36,150 bases of DNA. Source: Phycisphaerales bacterium (GTDB lineage: Bacteria; Planctomycetota; Phycisphaerae; Phycisphaerales; SM1A02). This document shows, piece by piece, positions 11,832 through 32,812 of this stretch. Every line of letters starts with the position of its first letter. Position 1 is the stretch's first letter. The DNA lies in the NCBI GenBank assembly GCA_020345805.1, contig CP070772.1, positions 3,902,929 through 3,939,078 on the forward strand, given 5' to 3'. A program made the position numbers and the translations under genes. The notes under the pieces are model-generated. The model worked only from the letters and a program-made list of their open reading frames with translations. It searched no databases and had not been told where the DNA came from.

Positions 11832-13097
11832 ATGCGCTGGGCGGTGGATCTGGCATATCTGGCGGTAGCGCTAATCAGCCTGCCGATCTGGCTCACGCGG
11901 ATGATCCGCACGGGCAAGATCCGTACCGACTGGGCCGGCCGCTTCGGGGCGACTCCCCCCGCGGTCGTCGATCAGCGATCAAGCGTGCTGCTGCAAGCGG
12001 TCTCGGTGGGGGAGGTCAACGCGATCCGGCTTCTGGTCGATCGGCTGGCTGATCCGTCGCATCAGGCCGAAGGTCGGGAGCCGCCTCGGATCATCGTCTC
12101 AACCACCACCGACACGGGCTTTGAGCGGGCGAAGCGCCTGTTTGGTGATCGCCACCGCGTGGTTCGCTACCCGCTGGATTTCTCTTTCGCCGTGCGCCGC
12201 TTCCTGAAGGCGATCAGGCCCAACGTAGCGGTGCTGGTGGAACTGGAAGTGTGGCCCAATTTCACGGCGATGTGTGCAAAGCAGGGCATACGCCTCTGTG
12301 TGGTCAACGGGCGGCTGACGGAGCGCAGCGCCCGGCGGTATGGACCGGTTCGCTGGATGATGCGCCCCAGCTTTCGTCGGCTGGATCGCGCGGCGGTCCA
12401 GAACGAGGACTATGCAGCGCGTTTCCGGGCCCTCGGCGCGGAAAATGTATGGGTGACCGGCACGATGAAATGGGACACCGCCGAGATTGCCCAACACGTA
12501 TCGGGGGCCGAGGAACTGGCCCGGACCATGGGGATCGATCGGACCCGACTGCTCGTGGTTGCCGGCTCCACCGCCCCGGGCGAGCACGAGTTGCTTGCAC
12601 GGGCGGTCGATCCGGAAGTGCAGCTCTTGTGCGCACCTCGCAAACCGGAATGGTTCGATCAAGCCGCTTCGGCACTGCCCGGTTGCGCCCGGCGCAGCCG
12701 CGGCGATTGCGGCAGCAAGACGGGCCGCTTCCTCCTGGACACCATCGGCGAGCTGCGCATGGCCTACGCCCTGGCCGACGTGGTGGTAGTCGGTCGGAGC
12801 TTCGGTCAGCTGCACGGCTCGGACATGATGGAGCCGGCTGCCTTGGGAAAGGCGGTGGTGGTGGGGCCTGCGGTTTCCGATTTCCAGCAGACGGTCGATG
12901 CCCTGCTGGCCGGGGACGGGATGGTTCAGACTGATCGGGACCGGCTACCTGAGGTGTTGCGGGATCTGCTCAACGATCCGGGGCGGCGGGAGGAGCTGGC
13001 CCGGAACGGGCAGGCGGTGATTCTCGCTCATCAGGGCGCCACGGATCGCCACGTTGAGATTATCCTCTCGTTGCTCCGGGAGGGAAAGGGAGCATGA
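11832..13097 (+). CDS. waaA: 3-deoxy-D-manno-octulosonic acid (Kdo) transferase WaaA
   Basis: WaaA attaches Kdo from CMP-Kdo to lipid A precursors on the inner face of the cytoplasmic membrane. The 421-residue product has the N-terminal membrane anchor (LAYLAVALISLPIW), the VSVGEVNA motif whose Glu61 is the expected catalytic base, and VLVELEVWPNF. The C-terminal GT-B half carries VAGSTAPGEHE, the region after DVVVVGRSFG and the EPAALGKAVVVGP motif. Its presence implies Kdo-containing LPS. A TTG lies nine bases upstream, but the ATG is preferred because of the -10 spacing. The macrodomain gene follows 12 bases after the stop. Confidence 0.95.
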   Translation: MRWAVDLAYLAVALISLPIWLTRMIRTGKIRTDWAGRFGATPPAVVDQRSSVLLQAVSVGEVNAIRLLVDRLADPSHQAEGREPPRIIVSTTTDTGFERAKRLFGDRHRVVRYPLDFSFAVRRFLKAIRPNVAVLVELEVWPNFTAMCAKQGIRLCVVNGRLTERSARRYGPVRWMMRPSFRRLDRAAVQNEDYAARFRALGAENVWVTGTMKWDTAEIAQHVSGAEELARTMGIDRTRLLVVAGSTAPGEHELLARAVDPEVQLLCAPRKPEWFDQAASALPGCARRSRGDCGSKTGRFLLDTIGELRMAYALADVVVVGRSFGQLHGSDMMEPAALGKAVVVGPAVSDFQQTVDALLAGDGMVQTDRDRLPEVLRDLLNDPGRREELARNGQAVILAHQGATDRHVEIILSLLREGKGA

Positions 13098-13109
13098 AGG
13101 AGCTGACCG

Positions 13110-13613
13110 ATGCCACAGCCGGAGATCATCGTCGATGACATAACCACTCTGGAGGTCGATGCCATCGTCAATGCAGCCAACAGCCCGATGGCCCCGGGCG
13201 GAGGCGTGTGCGGGGCGATCCATCGGGCGGCCGGGCCCGCCCTCGCCGAGGAATGCCGCCGCGTCGGGCCCTGCCCGACCGGCGATGCCAGGATCACCGG
13301 CGGTCACGGCCTCCCCGCCCGGTACGTCATTCACACCGTCGGGCCGGTCTATCAGGGAGGAAGTGCCGGAGAGGGCGAACTGCTCGCCTCCTGCTATCAG
13401 CGCAGCCTGGAGCTTGCCTGTGACAGCGGGGTGGAATCGATCGCCTTTCCCTGCATCAGCGCCGGGGTCTTCAGATATCCCCTGCGCGAGGCAGCGGGGA
13501 TCGCCCTCAACGTCATCAACAAGTGGCTTCTGTCCGGCCGGCAGCCGCAGAGAGTGATCTGCTGTTGCTTTCGACGGCAGGATGCGGCGATATGGCGCGA
13601 ACTGCTGGGGTAG
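13110..13613 (+). CDS. Macrodomain protein, probable O-acetyl-ADP-ribose deacetylase
   Basis: The 167-residue protein is a stand-alone macrodomain: IVNAANSPMAPGGGVCGAIH with the ADP-ribose-binding Asn residues (NAAN, 21-24) and the diphosphate loop, GPCPTGDARITGGHGLP, YVIHTVGPVYQ, and CISAGVFRYP. This is the YmdB/MacroD pattern, whose members hydrolyse O-acetyl-ADP-ribose or remove mono-ADP-ribose from proteins or nucleic acids. AAGGAG lies seven bases before the ATG, and the gene starts 12 bases after waaA, so it is probably co-transcribed. No ADP-ribosyltransferase is visible nearby. Confidence 0.93.
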   Translation: MPQPEIIVDDITTLEVDAIVNAANSPMAPGGGVCGAIHRAAGPALAEECRRVGPCPTGDARITGGHGLPARYVIHTVGPVYQGGSAGEGELLASCYQRSLELACDSGVESIAFPCISAGVFRYPLREAAGIALNVINKWLLSGRQPQRVICCCFRRQDAAIWRELLG

Positions 13614-13663
13614 AACCGTCGCCTTGCGGGCAACCCCGGATTCTCCGGAGAAAGGGCGCCAAA

Positions 13664-13701
13664 ACGAAACTCGCCGTCCCAGCGATAAACCGGGACGGCG
13701 A
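13664..13701 (-). terminator. Terminator of the minus-strand esterase gene
   Basis: A 9-bp stem (13672-13680 with 13692-13700, extendable by one pair) has an 11-base loop. Read on the minus strand it is followed by a T-rich AGTTTCGTTTTGG. It lies about 350 bases beyond the esterase stop at 14050 and 58 bases after the macrodomain stop, so it may serve both converging transcripts. Confidence 0.5.
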
Positions 13702-14049
13702 AGGAGGAGAAAGAAGAAAGGAGGAAAGAAGTAGGGGAATCAGGATTGGAAGAGCGCCGTTCAGCGCTGCTTCGTCCTCCGGATAGTACAGGTACGCAAC
13801 TCGCGAAACCGCTGTTCTCAAAAGCACAGAAAGGCCCGCGATGGCGTGCTGAGGCGCCGAGGCGCCGCGTTCATGCCTGCTGGACCTTCGGTCGGGGGAG
13901 CACCCCCTTTCCTCACGGGTCTTCTGACACCACAACGAATATCGGCCCGTGGACGGGCTCAACTTCAATTCTCTCAAAGTTTCGGCAAGCCCGTCAAGAT
14001 TGGCCCCAAACGGCTCCCAGATGCGGGGCATCGCCCTAAGTCTCTGTCA
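13702..14049. other. Intergenic stretch without a supported gene
   Basis: It begins with a pure purine tract on the plus strand (about 13698-13735, AAGGAGGAGAAAG...). The rest holds open frames on both strands with shadow-like composition; the longest (minus) runs back into the macrodomain gene. A short GGCGCCGAGGCGCC inverted repeat lies at about 13852-13866. Confidence 0.4.
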
Positions 14050-15078
14050 TCAAAGAGTTTCCGGCTCCAATTCGCCCGCGAAAAGCCGGGCGGCCTCATC
14101 TGCTTTTTGGCTCGGATCCAGAAAAGATTGACAAATTCGCTCAAAAACCGCATGTCTCCGCGCGTTGGCGAGACCGCCCTCATAGTGCCCAAACGGAGTG
14201 ATGAACCGCCACTTCTGCCCGCCGGCCAAGCCGTTGAACACCGCAGCAGCAGTGGGGGCCGGGACCGTGTCGTCCCGCAGCGCTGATTTGCACAGCACCG
14301 GACATCTCACAAACCGCCCCTGGAGGGCCGCGTCGAACAGCAGCAGGGTCGCCAGCAGCTCCTCGCGATCCTGCCCACGCAGGGTGTCCAGCATCAGTTT
14401 CACCTGGCCGCCCGGCCCGTTGCAGTAGCGAGTGCTCCGCCATCGCCAGTCGCCGAAGCCGGGCAGAGCCAGCGCCAGGCGAAAGGGCGGGTCTTTCTCG
14501 TCGAGCAGGCCCAGCTGTGCCGCGGCGATGACCGCCAATCCGCCGCCGAGAGATTCGCCGTGAAAACTGATGGGCGCATCCGGCCCCAAATGCCTGCGCA
14601 GACACCGGTATCCCTGCATCAGGTCCGCGACTGCTCCCCGCGCGATCCATGCCCGCGCGGACTCTATGTTGTGGACAATCCAACGGTCGCGCAAATCGTC
14701 GATCTCCATCGTGGAGGGGGGGAAGCCCCGCAGGCGAAGCCGGAGCGTGGCCAGCCCCCGCGAGGTCCACGGCTCCCGCAGTTCCTCGCCGCACTCAAAA
14801 TCGTCCGGTGTCTCGTAGCCGTGCGATGCGATCACCGCTCCGCGCACCGGGCCGTCGGGCAGCTCCAGCCGTCCGATGATCCGCACTGAGCGGAGCGATG
14901 GAATGACGATCCGGTTGACGCGTTCATCCACGGAGCCCTGGAAGTACGTCGACAGGACCGCGATTTCCTCGCGGAACTCCCGCCAATACTCGGCAAAACG
15001 GTCCGGCAGAGCCTCCGCCACGGTGTGAGCCAGCGTCTGCCGGGGCGTGAGTCCGTAATCTTCCGGCGCTGAAAGCAC
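14050..15078 (-). CDS. Acetyl-xylan-esterase-like alpha/beta hydrolase, about 342 aa
   Basis: The frame is open up to an ATG at 15180, but that ATG overlaps the thiL ATG on the other strand (both within CATG) and its first 34 residues are basic and disordered. A GTG at 15078 after GGAAAAGG is a likelier start and leaves about 100 bases for divergent promoters. The protein has the AXE1/cephalosporin-C-deacetylase layout: a long N-terminal lead, VIASHGYETP, then LRLRGFPPS, the nucleophile elbow FHGESLGGGL, an acidic site after LRDDTVPAPT, and a C-terminal His in TPFGHYEGG. No signal peptide. Probably deacetylates small substrates; which one is unknown. Confidence 0.8.
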   Translation of the reverse strand: MLSAPEDYGLTPRQTLAHTVAEALPDRFAEYWREFREEIAVLSTYFQGSVDERVNRIVIPSLRSVRIIGRLELPDGPVRGAVIASHGYETPDDFECGEELREPWTSRGLATLRLRLRGFPPSTMEIDDLRDRWIVHNIESARAWIARGAVADLMQGYRCLRRHLGPDAPISFHGESLGGGLAVIAAAQLGLLDEKDPPFRLALALPGFGDWRWRSTRYCNGPGGQVKLMLDTLRGQDREELLATLLLFDAALQGRFVRCPVLCKSALRDDTVPAPTAAAVFNGLAGGQKWRFITPFGHYEGGLANARRHAVFERICQSFLDPSQKADEAARLFAGELEPETL

Positions 15079-15164
15079 GGGCCTTTTCCGTCGGTGGTGA
15101 GTTGGGCCGACTGTGCGCCTGCCCTTGCTGCCGCGGCGTTCTTCCGGCCGCCGATTATCGCGTC

Positions 15165-15178
15165 TAAACTTTAGTCCC
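15165..15178 (+). promoter_or_regulatory. -10 element of thiL, probably leaderless
   Basis: TAAACT (15165-15170) starts 14 bases before the thiL ATG. No Shine-Dalgarno is present in the short gap. Confidence 0.4.
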
Positions 15179-16093
15179 ATGCGGGAATTCGATCTGCTTC
15201 AGCGCATCTACGCGGCCAACGTCTCTCTGGGAGAGCGGGTGGCCATTCCCCCCGGGGACGATCTGGCGCAGATAAACCTGACCGATCGGCGACTGCTGGT
15301 GGGCGTCGATCAGCTCGTGGTCGGCCGGCACGTGAACGCGGCTCGGACATCCATCGAGCAGATCGCCCGCAAGGCGATCGCGCGAAGCGTGAGCGATATC
15401 GCGGCGATGGCGGGCCGGCCGCTGGCATCGCTGGTCGCGGCCGTTCTACCCCCGGATTTCGGCCAGGAACGGGCCGGGCGGTTCGCCGATGCCCTGCGCG
15501 AGTCGGCGGCGGAACTGGATTGTCCGCTCATCGGCGGCGATGTCGCCTTCCATTCCGATCCTTCACACCCCCTGATCTGTTCCGTGACCGTTCTCGCGGA
15601 GCCGGCCTCGGATCACCCCATCACCCGAAGCGGCGCGCTGGTCGGCGACACCGTGTACGTCACGGGCGAACTGGGCGGAGCGGTCGAGCCTGACGGCACG
15701 GGCCGGCACCTGACCTTCGCCCCGCGAGTCAAGGAGGCGATCGAGCTCGCCACGAACCTGGGCGGTCGTCTGCACGCCATGATCGACATCAGCGACGGGC
15801 TGGGGCGCGATGCCTCCCACATCGCCGAATCTTCCGGCACCCAGATTCGAATCGATGCAGGCCGCCTCCCACGGCACGAGGATCTTGACTGGCAGGCCGC
15901 AATGTCCGGCGGAGAGGATTACGAATTGTGTTTCACCGCGGCCGGGGAGGTGCCCGCCCGACTCGGTGAGGTGCCCGTCACCGCCATCGGCGAGGTGGTT
16001 GAATCCCCCGGCGAAGATGCGCCGTTGGTTCTCGTGCAGGCGGAAGGGCGCGAGGTCCGGGCCGATGAACTGGGCTGGCAACACGAATCATGA
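15179..16093 (+). CDS. thiL: Thiamine-monophosphate kinase ThiL
   Basis: ThiL phosphorylates thiamine monophosphate to the diphosphate cofactor. The 304-residue product follows the family from end to end: [20 protein letters not shown] with the metal-binding Asp pair, [26 protein letters not shown], the internal [14 protein letters not shown], and [11 protein letters not shown] near the end. GVDQLVVG replaces the more usual TTDxLVEG, a mild divergence. The open frame extends to 15113, but the ATG at 15179 gives the family N-terminus. Its stop overlaps the start of the next gene by four bases (ATGA). Confidence 0.95.
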
Positions 16094-28914: not shown

Positions 28915-29403
28915 CTAAACCCAGCGCACCGGGGCGATCGCGGAGCGGTCGACGTCTTCGTCAAGCTCCACGGGCAGGGAGGCCGGGACCGCATCCGGCT
29001 GATCGGCCGCGGCCGGCCGCTCCTGAACGGGGGGTGCGAGGTTCCGGATCGTCCGAATCACGTTGGACAGTCCGTTCTGATGATGGTTCAAACCGCTGCC
29101 GATGGCGGCAGGCAGAGTCTGATCGACCGGGCGCCGGGCCTGCGGGCTGTGCTGGTGCACCTGGACCGCGGCGAGGATGACGGTGACCATGGCCAGCGTG
29201 AACAGGGCGCGGTTGATCCTGCGGCGTATGCGATAACGCCGCGCAACTCGAGGGGAAGCGTGCATGAAGCCGAGCCGTCCCATAATGGAGCGGGTCATGT
29301 CCGGCGCTCGAGCCGATTGGCCCAGGGTGCGGGAGAGGATCGCCGACAGCCGTTCGCCGGCGTCGCGGTGCGACAGGTTGCCTGGCCCGCTCGCCCATTT
29401 CAT
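28915..29403 (-). CDS. One-TM protein following an ECF sigma factor, putative anti-sigma factor
   Basis: The ATG at 29403 overlaps the stop of the sigma-factor gene by four bases (ATGA), the usual arrangement for translational coupling with an anti-sigma factor. The 162-residue protein has a cytoplasmic N-terminus of about 65 residues, one membrane segment (about 66-82, RALFTLAMVTVILAAVQV) and an external Pro/Ala/Asp-rich part. It lacks the HxxxCxxC zinc motif of ZAS anti-sigma factors, so the anti-sigma role rests on context and topology. Confidence 0.65.
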   Translation of the reverse strand: MKWASGPGNLSHRDAGERLSAILSRTLGQSARAPDMTRSIMGRLGFMHASPRVARRYRIRRRINRALFTLAMVTVILAAVQVHQHSPQARRPVDQTLPAAIGSGLNHHQNGLSNVIRTIRNLAPPVQERPAAADQPDAVPASLPVELDEDVDRSAIAPVRWV

Positions 29404-29993
29404 GACCACGCCTCCTGCACCTGCTCGTGCATCTTCCGGTTGGCGGTGATGAGCCGCTTCATCCGTTTGCGGGCCCGGTGGAGATGGCTCTTGACCGTTC
29501 CCTCGGGCATGTCGAGGTGTTCGGCGATCGTCGTAATGGGCCAGCTTTGCTGGTGGAAGAGGAGAATGATCTCTCGCTGCTGCTCGTTGAGACCGGCGAG
29601 AGCGGTCTCGATCAGGCCGCGAATATTGCCCAGCACCTCCCGCCGTGCGGTGACGCCTCCGGGGCTCTCCTGATGGCACTGGCGGGCGTTGACGGTTTCC
29701 GTGTCGTAGGCCGGCCGATGCTTCTGAATCCAGTTGACGTACAGCCGCTTGGCGATGGTGAACACCCAGGTGCTGAAGCGGAAGCGGTCGTCAAACCGGT
29801 CCAGGTTGTTCAGGACGCGCACGAACGCCTCCTGCACGATGTCCTCGGCCACGTCGGGCCGGCCGGACATGCGCAGGATAAAGGCGTAGAGGGCATCCTG
29901 ATGGGCACGGATGAGGCCTTCGATGGCGATGGCATCGCCACGTCTGGCCCGGCCGATCAGCGCTCGCTCGGTATTGATGCCCATCATGGCCAT
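29400..29993 (-). CDS. ECF-type RNA polymerase sigma factor, 197 aa
   Basis: Region 2 is clear (DALYAFILRMSGRPDVAEDI, then VQEAFVRVLNNLDRF and FSTWVFTIAKRLYVNWI, about 33-90), as is region 4 (LNEQQREIILLFHQQ and DMPEGTVKSHLHRARKRM, about 140-180). This is a SigE/RpoE-like extracytoplasmic-function sigma factor directing RNA polymerase to a stress or envelope regulon. Starts at 29993, 29987 and 29984 are all possible. TACAAT on the minus strand (29997-30002) lies 15 bases before the ATG at 29987, and no good Shine-Dalgarno is visible, so 29987 may be the true start. Followed by the putative anti-sigma gene and a secreted-protein gene. Confidence 0.92.
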   Translation of the reverse strand: MAMMGINTERALIGRARRGDAIAIEGLIRAHQDALYAFILRMSGRPDVAEDIVQEAFVRVLNNLDRFDDRFRFSTWVFTIAKRLYVNWIQKHRPAYDTETVNARQCHQESPGGVTARREVLGNIRGLIETALAGLNEQQREIILLFHQQSWPITTIAEHLDMPEGTVKSHLHRARKRMKRLITANRKMHEQVQEAWS

Positions 29994-30112: not shown

Positions 30113-31039
30113 TCACTGGCAGGGCCCCCAGCCGCCGAGAATGAGGAAGAGATCATCGATGTTGACCTTGCCGTCGTCATTGAGGTCTTCGGGGCAGGTA
30201 TCGCAGGTTCCCCACGCGCCCAGGATCATGAACAGGTCATCGATGTTGACCTTGCCATCGGCGTTGAGATCTTCCGGACATTCCGGAACCAGGGGCCAGT
30301 ACATGATCTCGGCCTGATGCACCTCGGCCGGGGCGCTGTCCGCCGGGTCCTGGGCGAAGGCCATGATCCGGATGTTCTCGCGATTGTCCCAGCTCTCGGC
30401 ACGGAAGGTGATCTGCTGCTGGATGTCGATCGTCTGGCCGGGGACGAGTGGAAACTCACCCATGTCAAAGCCCTGCCGAACGCAGTTGTTGTACCGGCCG
30501 TCGGTGTACCCGGGCGGATAGTCGAAGAGGGTGTCCACGATGTGGACCCTGACGGTCTTGGCCACGCCGTCCGCGTCCAGTCCGACGGTGGCGGTGATGA
30601 GGTAGGTCGCCTCTGCGACCTCCTCCGCGGACAGCGTGATCGTAACGTCGGTGGGCACGGCCAGGCGGGTGAGCAGATCCTGCTCGAGTTCGAGGTAATC
30701 CTCTTCCCACTCCCCGGAGGAGCCGAGCATCTTGATCAGCCCGTCAGTCCACACCACCGGAATCGAAATCGCGGTATAGAAGCTCCTGCGCCCCAATCCC
30801 CAGGCGGTGGTGTAATAGAAGTTGTGCATCTGGAAAGCCACCAGATCGTCGGGATAATCTGCCAGCAGTTCTGTCAGCGCACGGCCGACGTAGGGGCAGT
30901 ACTCTCAGTTCTCGGCCGTGAACGCTTCGGCGAGGACCTTGCGGTCCGCGGCGCGGGCTTCCACGCTCACCGCTACCGCGGTCATGGCCGCGACAAAGAC
31001 GATCGCGATCAGGCGCTTCTGCGGCATGTTCAACCTCAT
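30113..31039 (-). CDS. Predicted secreted selenoprotein A: thioredoxin/Omp28-like with UxxC and dockerin repeats
   Basis: The start is the ATG at 31039, ten bases after AAGGAG, followed by a signal peptide (cleavage near EARA-AD). Codon 45 is TGA (30905-30907), within VLAEAFTAEN-U-EYCPYVGRA. The sequence continues in frame for 263 codons, so the TGA stands in the first position of a thioredoxin-type CxxC; Cys48 is the partner. The fold resembles secreted Omp28-like/thioredoxin proteins with FYYTTAWG, IPVVWTDGL and a beta-rich domain. Two dockerin-like calcium-binding repeats (DLNADGKVNIDDLF, DLNDDGKVNIDDLF) end the protein. Without recoding, a caller would start at an internal ATG near 30841 and lose the signal peptide and active site. 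Predicted total 308 residues. Confidence 0.85.
30873..30907 (-). promoter_or_regulatory. Candidate bacterial SECIS element of selenoprotein A
   Basis: After the UGA, 15 nt lead to a stem GUCGGC / GCUGAC (30884-30889 with 30873-30878, six pairs including one G-U) closing the five-base loop CGUGC. The loop starts 21 nt after UGA, within the range usual for bacterial SECIS elements, which are small hairpins with a GU in the apical loop. Confidence 0.65.
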
Positions 31040-31363
31040 GGTGACTGAACTCCTTGCTTCGGTTCCACGGTAGGCGTGCCCTATGGAGGCTCTCCGGAAT
31101 CAATCAGGGTGGCGACCGTCCCGTGCGGGCCGCGAGCGCCGGGGGCAAATCGACAGCCGGCCGCCGACCGACGGCCCGGGGTATTTACATCCGCAACATA
31201 GCACCTCACGGTTCCCGTTCAATCCGGACATTGACAGAACCTGCCGGCGATTGTCGGCGCTGGAAGGGGCCGGATGGGGCAGTGACGAAAAGCGGCCCCG
31301 CCGGGTGGCGGGGCCGCTTGAATCCCAATCGGGGAGGGATGCGGCAGGACCGGCTGCCGATGA
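31040..31363. other. Spacer between the two selenoprotein genes
   Basis: No gene. It contains the terminator of selenoprotein B (31288-31318) and must hold the promoter of selenoprotein A; a minus-strand TAAATA at 31182-31187 is a weak -10 candidate. A plus-strand TTGACA near 31230 has no matching -10. Confidence 0.4.
31288..31318 (-). terminator. Terminator of selenoprotein B
   Basis: A perfect 12-bp GC stem (31291-31302 with 31307-31318) and four-base loop are followed on the minus strand by TTTCG. It begins 46 bases beyond the stop of the gene at 31364, so the two selenoprotein genes are probably separate transcription units. Confidence 0.75.
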
Positions 31364-32308
31364 TCAGCAGGGCCCCCAGGCCGCCAGGACTGCGAACACG
31401 TCGTCGATGTCGACCATGCCGTCATCGTTCACGTCATAGGTGCCGCCCGTCTCGCCCCAGTGGGCCAGAATGTCGAAGAGGTCGTCGATATCGACCATCT
31501 CGTCGGCGTTCACGTCCTCGGGGCAGGATGGCGGAGGCGTGAGCGGCCAAGTGGCCATCTCCGACTGGTACACGTTGCCCGGTTTGTGAGTGACCGGCTC
31601 CTCGGCGAAAGCGATGATCCGAATGTTGTCCGGATTGGCCTCGCTCTCAGCGCGGAAGGTGATTTCCTGGGTGATCTCGACGGTTTCACCGGGAACGAGG
31701 TCGATGTCGTTGTGCGTGTAGCCGTTCCTCACGCAGTTGTTGTATCGGCCATCGGTGTTGTAGGGATAGTCGAACAGGGCATCGATGATGTGGAGCCTTA
31801 CCGTCTTGGCCTCACCGCCCTCCTCCACGCCGAGATAGACGGTGATGAGGTAGGTCGGGAGGCTATCCTTGCCCTCGCCCTTACCCATGGGCTCACCGTA
31901 GATCTCGATAGTGACGTCCGTCGGAACAGCCAGGCGAGCGACCCTCTTGCTGTTGTACCAGTTGTACATCTGGTCGTCGTTCTGGTAGGCGCCAAGGCAC
32001 TGCAGCACCGCGTCGAAGTAGGTGTCGGGGATCCCCCCAACGCTGAAGAACGACTTGCGGGCTGTTCCCCAGGCGGTGGTGTAGTAGGCGGTATGAACCT
32101 GAAGGGCGACCAGTGATTCAGGATAATCGTTGATCAATCTCGTCAGCGCACGGCCGGCGAAAGGGCAATACTGTCACGTCTGGCTCGTAAAGTTCTCCGC
32201 GATGACCTTGCGCTGTGCGGCCTGGGCCTCTTGGCTCAGGGCAGCCGCGGCCATCGCGGCCAGCAGTGCCGAGGCGGCGAAAGTTGCGAATCTCGACGTT
32301 TTTCTCAT
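31364..32308 (-). CDS. Predicted secreted selenoprotein B: thioredoxin/Omp28-like with UxxC and dockerin repeats
   Basis: Paralogue of the adjacent gene at 30113-31039. It starts at the ATG at 32308 after GAGGAG and a signal peptide (cleavage near EAQA-AQ). Codon 45 is TGA (32174-32176) in [21 protein letters not shown], the same residue number and motif position as in copy A; Cys48 completes UxxC. The body shares AYYTTAWG, the [10 protein letters not shown] segment, [12 protein letters not shown] and [16 protein letters not shown] with copy A. It ends in dockerin-like repeats ([34 protein letters not shown]) and GPC. Predicted 314 residues. Two diverged paralogues keeping TGA at one cysteine position, with the rest of the frame intact, argue against random nonsense mutation. 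Likely role: extracytoplasmic thiol/disulfide or peroxide redox chemistry. Confidence 0.85.
32142..32176 (-). promoter_or_regulatory. Candidate bacterial SECIS element of selenoprotein B
   Basis: The hairpin is at the same place as in copy A: loop CGUGC (32148-32152) 21 nt after UGA, closed by CGGC/GCUG, one C-A mismatch, then further pairs from UCG with CGA (arms 32153-32160 and 32140-32147). The 15 nt around the loop are identical to copy A. Confidence 0.6.
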
Positions 32309-32812
32309 TTTGATCTGACTCCTCGTTTTCTCTGGCGATTGCCTTTGTTTGAGGAGGCGACGCGGCCTCCGGGACGTGCGACAGAAACACTGCTCGACAC
32401 TCTGCCGGCCGGCAGAGTGCGAACCGCCACCCCTCTCCGGCAAGGTCCAGGCGAAACCAATGCTCGCCTGTGCGGGCCGGACACGGCTGTATATACTCCA
32501 AAAGATACCGCAATTGGGCGATTGGCCAAAGAGAAATCCGCCCGCAAGTGGATTTGGCTTGTGTTCGGGGCCTCCGGAAGTCCGGTAAACGTGCCCGCCA
32601 CGTCGCCGGCCCGGGATAACCGAACGGCCTTTTTTCGGTTTGCACTTGGGTTGGCCGGAGAGTCCGGATATGCTTACGGGCGTCAGTATCCGCAACCTGT
32701 CGCGACCGGCCGCGTTGGAGGCGCGGTCGGTAGCCGGTGTCGAGGCCACGCCCACTCGGCCGCCGGTTGGTCAATCTTTACCCCTACCCTCAGTGTGATT
32801 GGAGAAACGTTC
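32309..32812. other. Divergent intergenic region between selenoprotein B and the pseudopilin
   Basis: No gene is supported; the open plus-strand frame is an upstream extension of the pseudopilin frame. The region contains a 22-bp palindrome (32398-32419), a plus-strand TATACT (32492-32497) without a good -35, and a 7-bp hairpin AACCGAA/TTCGGTT near 32618-32640 with a T-rich loop. Confidence 0.45.
32398..32419. repeat. Perfect 22-bp palindrome upstream of selenoprotein B
   Basis: CACTCTGCCGG is followed by its exact reverse complement. It lies 90 bases upstream of the selenoprotein B ATG, in the shared divergent region, with no T-run on either side. This fits an operator for a dimeric regulator better than a terminator. 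Confidence 0.5.

Follow-up and report, generated by a model that had tools for sequence, protein, structure and literature searches.

Thioredoxin-fold selenoproteins with a conserved UxxC motif were described in 2008 as GOS_C, a set to which ocean samples contributed 74 selenoprotein and 312 Cys sequences (PMC2398784), and a 2026 catalogue of prokaryotic selenoproteins lists the NCBIfam family NF045500, the Omp28-related selenoprotein, as GOS_C, with the motif UxxC (PMC13188914). HBP35 is a cell-surface protein that binds hemin and whose thioredoxin activity needs its two active-site cysteines (PMC2907840). Here we analyze two adjacent genes, A and B, in a 36,150-nt stretch of a Phycisphaerales genome (the window; bases 3902929–3939078 of a 3.94 Mb scaffold, in an assembly that is ~80% complete). 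NF045500 is the best family match of both gene products (E-values of 4e-16 and 2e-16, with ~225–240 residues aligned) as well as of 34 of 35 relatives. The two scores, 59.4 and 60.1 bits, do not reach the curated cut-off of 200, and none of 392 genomes of the phylum yielded a match to this profile above that cut-off. With a probability of roughly 0.88, we interpret the products of genes A and B as exported, selenocysteine (Sec)-containing thioredoxin-fold oxidoreductases that belong to a divergent branch of the Omp28-related (GOS_C) proteins.

Results

Translated through the TGA at codon 45, which is read as Sec, gene A (31364–32308, minus strand) encodes 314 residues and gene B (30113–31039, minus strand) encodes 308 residues, each frame closing at a second TGA (31366–31364 and 30115–30113, respectively). 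Both genes start with ATG behind a purine-rich site (GAGGAG at 32324–32319 for gene A, AAGGAG at 31055–31050 for gene B), and their proteins are 51–52% identical. The original prediction, which described minus-strand paralogues with a codon-45 TGA at 32174–32176 (gene A) and 30905–30907 (gene B) and 260–270 codons beyond it, is exact in its positions, and we counted 269 and 263 codons, respectively, between this TGA and the TGA stop. The motifs read U-QYCP in gene A and U-EYCP in gene B; as had been proposed, the TGA replaces the first Cys of the CxxC found in Cys relatives, with the second Cys intact. The N-termini of both proteins (32216–32308 in gene A and 30947–31039 in gene B, minus strand) resemble signal peptides by sequence reading, with cleavage likely near AQA-A and ARA-A, respectively; this segment of gene A is of low confidence in the structure model.

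A 100-N gap directly precedes the window, which therefore looks like one original contig, and a plasmid search returned no match. Gene B is closely followed downstream by an ECF-type sigma factor gene that is also on the minus strand (29403–29993), and a regulatory link between this factor and the selenoprotein pair is possible.

To identify homologues, we used the core sequences of genes A and B to search 301 genomes of the order. The genome that contains the window holds five family copies, each with a single TGA in the core. Two other Phycisphaerales metagenome-assembled genomes carry TGA copies, namely G003 (one TGA and two Cys copies) and G175 (two copies, both TGA), and the remaining family-bearing genomes of this search have Cys copies. 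Two further Planctomycetota genomes, G662 and G663, hold three and two TGA copies, respectively, plus Cys or altered copies. In total, five Planctomycetota genomes supply 13 TGA genes, and in some of these genomes Cys paralogues coexist with the TGA copies. A search of named contig records recovered no relatives with a two-sequence query and five loci with a six-sequence query.

The original prediction had proposed that homologues be aligned and inspected for Cys or TGA at codon 45. In our alignment, the TGA of all 13 TGA genes matches the first Cys of CxxC, a motif seen in some 30 Cys relatives, and the core domain of each TGA gene contains exactly one TGA, always in this same column. Past the TGA, substitution reaches 0.44–0.56 at third codon positions versus 0.20–0.36 at positions 1 and 2; third positions are the most changed, and the downstream part is therefore still under selection as protein. 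These observations bear on the simplest alternative, that the TGAs are ordinary stops, left by nonsense mutation or sequencing error in Cys genes that were duplicated and are decaying. Most TGA-interrupted open frames are indeed ordinary stops, but the recurrence of TGA at one column in 13 homologous genes of five genomes and the intact, selected frames beyond it make a chance origin as unlikely as had been predicted. The tRNA-Sec that accompanies TGA copies and the hairpins that follow the codon, both described below, argue in the same direction, and we rejected this pseudogene reading as very improbable.

In a tree, the first eight TGA genes group with both Cys genes of G003 in a single part, an arrangement that needs two state changes. 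These two Cys-type copies of G003, which are sisters in the tree, lie side by side (L054, G003:C76:4138-6104), much as the Sec-type genes A and B do in the window. Individual members also depart from the common motif. One gene of G663 (G663c; L117, G663:C4:12538-13224) reads UxxD, with the TGA retained and the second cysteine absent, so that the usual internal selenylsulfide is impossible in its product. In G662, a genome with TGA copies, one gene has no first Cys at all (TGLPC; L115, G662:C205:6963-7649).

The genome that contains the window encodes a tRNA-Sec whose anticodon is UCA (70 bits), SelB (324 bits, cut by an N gap), and a SelD with an in-frame TGA of its own, in the motif SGUAGK (L018 6465-7391; G000:C1:3609464-3610390); the SelD of G175 is likewise TGA-bearing. 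Hence, of the sel genes that the original prediction suggested looking for, those for tRNA-Sec and SelB, whose joint or single absence it had named as evidence against Sec, are both detected, as is that for SelD, whereas SelA was not found in this gapped, ~80% complete assembly. Taken at face value, the missing SelA would favor ordinary stops. The simplest reading follows from the genomic context: selD and selB lie close together, selB stops at a gap, and tRNA-Sec begins ~100 bases from another assembly gap, while a single contig of G175 carries selD, selB (11964-13856), selA (13948-15291), and tRNA-Sec (15427-15522). Because the gaps fall where G175 keeps selA, the sel cluster was presumably broken by the assembly, and selA would reside in the missing piece.

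The distribution of this machinery follows that of the TGA copies. Among the 25 family-bearing genomes first tested, tRNA-Sec was found in all three that hold TGA copies, whereas the other 22, whose copies are all of the Cys type, yielded none; SelA is present in two of these three TGA genomes (G003 and G175), the third being the gapped genome that contains the window. By counting alone, the co-occurrence of tRNA-Sec and TGA has a chance of 1 in 2,300, which is not a clean probability since the genomes are related and the counts are not independent. SelB scores above its curated cut-off in all five TGA genomes. G663 also has a tRNA-Sec, and a search of G662, with its three TGA copies, found none.

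We also considered that UGA might be reassigned, or read as another amino acid (Trp or Cys) without selenium, as the frame alone would stay open whichever amino acid TGA encoded. However, genes A and B both also terminate in TGA, the normal code keeps neighboring genes open, the core of each family copy contains TGA just once, and tRNA-Sec, SelB, and SelD are all present. Stop-codon reassignment was rejected on these grounds, and we assign it a negligible likelihood.

The published model of the bacterial SECIS element describes a hairpin 16–37 nt after the UGA whose first two loop positions include a G and whose folding energy is −7.5 kcal/mol or lower (PMC13188914). Both genes of the pair have a hairpin of this form. 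The hairpin of gene A (32138–32162, minus strand) has a 5+4 bp stem with one mismatch, a CGUGC loop 21 nt after the UGA, and an energy of −8.8 kcal/mol, and that of gene B (30873–30889, minus strand) has a 6 bp stem with the same loop at the same distance and an energy of −8.4 kcal/mol. We applied a constrained SECIS model, in which the G[G/U] form is required, identically to the 13 TGA genes and to 31 Cys genes. Hairpins of −5 kcal/mol or lower were found in 13 of 13 TGA genes versus 3 of 31 Cys genes (Fisher 1e-8), and hairpins of −7.5 kcal/mol or lower in 11 of 13 versus 1 of 31 (Fisher 1e-7). Thus, the hairpin tracks the UGA codon within one family. In the TGA genes, the G-U loop lies 18–22 nt after the UGA, and the hairpins average −9.1, versus −3.3 in synonymous shuffles (0 of 200 shuffles are as low on average).

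Two types of hairpin can be distinguished among the TGA genes, one with CGUGC or CGUGA loops and one with mostly GUC, GUA, or GUU loops. Within the former, the loop-closing pair has changed from C-G to G-C, with both sides altered. Considered alone, the hairpin of gene A does not stand out from its own synonymous shuffles, and unconstrained folding of the 48–66 nt that follow the TGA gave no significant result for gene A or gene B. The TGA and Cys genes were told apart only by the constrained model, for which the Cys relatives and the synonymous shuffles served as controls. The strength of the SECIS evidence lies in the whole set of genes, gene A being unremarkable when taken singly.

The tRNA-Sec, SelB, and Sec-type SelD, the alignment of TGA with Cys, the co-occurrence of the machinery with TGA copies, and the SECIS-type hairpins all point to the same conclusion, and the selenocysteine reading of the two TGAs is strongly supported. 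The original proposal of Sec in an exported thioredoxin-fold protein is upheld by this evidence.

The structure model of the gene A core (mean pLDDT of 90.8) displays two domains. The first (residues 32–129; 31922–32215, minus strand) is a predicted thioredoxin domain, assigned from the model together with structural matches and the alignment, with Cys48, His72, and Pro94 invariant; UxxC is located between the first strand and the next helix, and Pro94 follows later in the domain. The second (residues 130–255; 31544–31921, minus strand) is a predicted beta-sandwich, which is covered by the matches to HBP35 and 2axo. The best solved match over the whole core is P. gingivalis HBP35 (5y1a; Z = 21.6, 2.8 Å, 214 residues), and the second is 2axo, which we take to be a DUF1223 protein (Z = 19.0, 193 residues). 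Thioredoxins alone match with Z-scores of 11–12, well below these two. As HBP35, the closest fold, has Cys-dependent thioredoxin activity, the likeliest function of the gene A and B proteins would be that of an extracytoplasmic selenol/thiol-disulfide oxidoreductase.

The same comparison admits a different role, in which the proteins are selenoproteins that mainly bind an extracellular ligand (heme or metal), with the selenol acting as ligand or sensor rather than as disulfide catalyst. HBP35 also binds hemin (PMC2907840), metal contacts have been argued for many Sec residues in a 2026 review (PMC13188914), and G663c has UxxD without the second Cys. However, UxxC is retained by 12 of the 13 TGA members and Pro94 is invariant, which is the usual oxidoreductase site, and we therefore regard a primary role in ligand binding as unlikely, with a modest share of the probability.

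Both proteins end in a tail with two calcium-type loops (residues 262–314 of gene A, 31367–31525; residues 254–308 of gene B, 30116–30280; both minus strand). When compared to the NCBIfam GC-type dockerin model (NF041540; cut-off 29), the tails of genes A and B score 22.6 and 26.9 bits, respectively, whereas Pfam Dockerin_1 (PF00404; cut-off 22.9) matches gene B only, with 20 bits. Since these scores fall just under both curated cut-offs, we term the tail dockerin-like; the original assignment to dockerins goes further than the scores allow. A long, unrelated protein encoded elsewhere in this genome (L018 10970-12853, minus strand) ends in the same dockerin-like tail (NIDDLFRVLGKWGTC ... GPC), which suggests that the tail is a general envelope or sorting module of the organism. 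A literature search found nothing that joins selenocysteine with dockerin in an architectural sense. We suggest, tentatively and with more doubt than confidence, that these may be the first exported selenoproteins on a dockerin-like calcium anchor, a lineage-specific expansion of five selenocysteine paralogues that would form a selenol redox system at the envelope, acting on substrates of its own.

Discussion

The computational evidence supports the frame, the pairing of TGA with Cys, the machinery, the hairpin, and the fold; from it we infer Sec insertion, export, redox activity, and envelope attachment of the two proteins. In the proposed mechanism, SelB with Sec-tRNA(UCA) would bind the hairpin 21 nt after the UGA, and selenocysteine would be inserted at codon 45. 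The protein would be exported by means of its signal peptide and would then fold into a thioredoxin domain with the redox pair U45-C48, followed by the beta-sandwich and the calcium-loop tail, which may anchor it at the cell envelope. The folded protein would work outside the cytoplasm in selenol/thiol-disulfide exchange, and together with its relatives would constitute a divergent Phycisphaerales branch of the Omp28-related (GOS_C) UxxC selenoproteins.

A standard annotation pipeline would call a 44-residue stub and a truncated frame for such genes. Our analysis adds well-supported selenoproteins in Phycisphaerales, where the NF045500 cut-off was reached in none of the genomes searched, and a multi-copy, putatively exported family with Cys paralogues provides a natural setting in which to ask why selenium stays extracellular.

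Four described families invite comparison. HBP35 shares the thioredoxin and beta-sandwich arrangement over the whole core, but at 12% identity, and it is a Cys protein that binds hemin, carries a C-terminal domain for type IX secretion, and is not a selenoprotein as described. DUF1223 (PF06764, 2axo) shares the fold and a weak sequence match at the CxxC region, but the scores of 23.2 and 13.3 bits lie below the gathering score of 30.7, and the DUF1223-like homologues found here are of the Cys form. The Omp28 family outer membrane lipoprotein model (NF033782) is the second sequence match for 24 of 35 relatives, but it covers only the start of the thioredoxin domain and gives the full window proteins at most 43 bits against a cut-off of 150. 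A literature search found nothing linking Omp28 or DUF1223 with a selenoprotein. With NF045500/GOS_C, finally, the window proteins share UxxC (U-EYC and U-QYC here) in a thioredoxin fold, but they end in two dockerin-like loops, and their genome has five TGA paralogues. The earlier statement that no selenoprotein of this architecture had been described was thus too strong, since the thioredoxin-fold UxxC kind is already known through NF045500/GOS_C, and it is right only in part. What is new is this divergent, calcium-loop-tailed, multi-copy Phycisphaerales branch, beyond the present NF045500 model, together with the evidence that UGA is decoded as selenocysteine within it.
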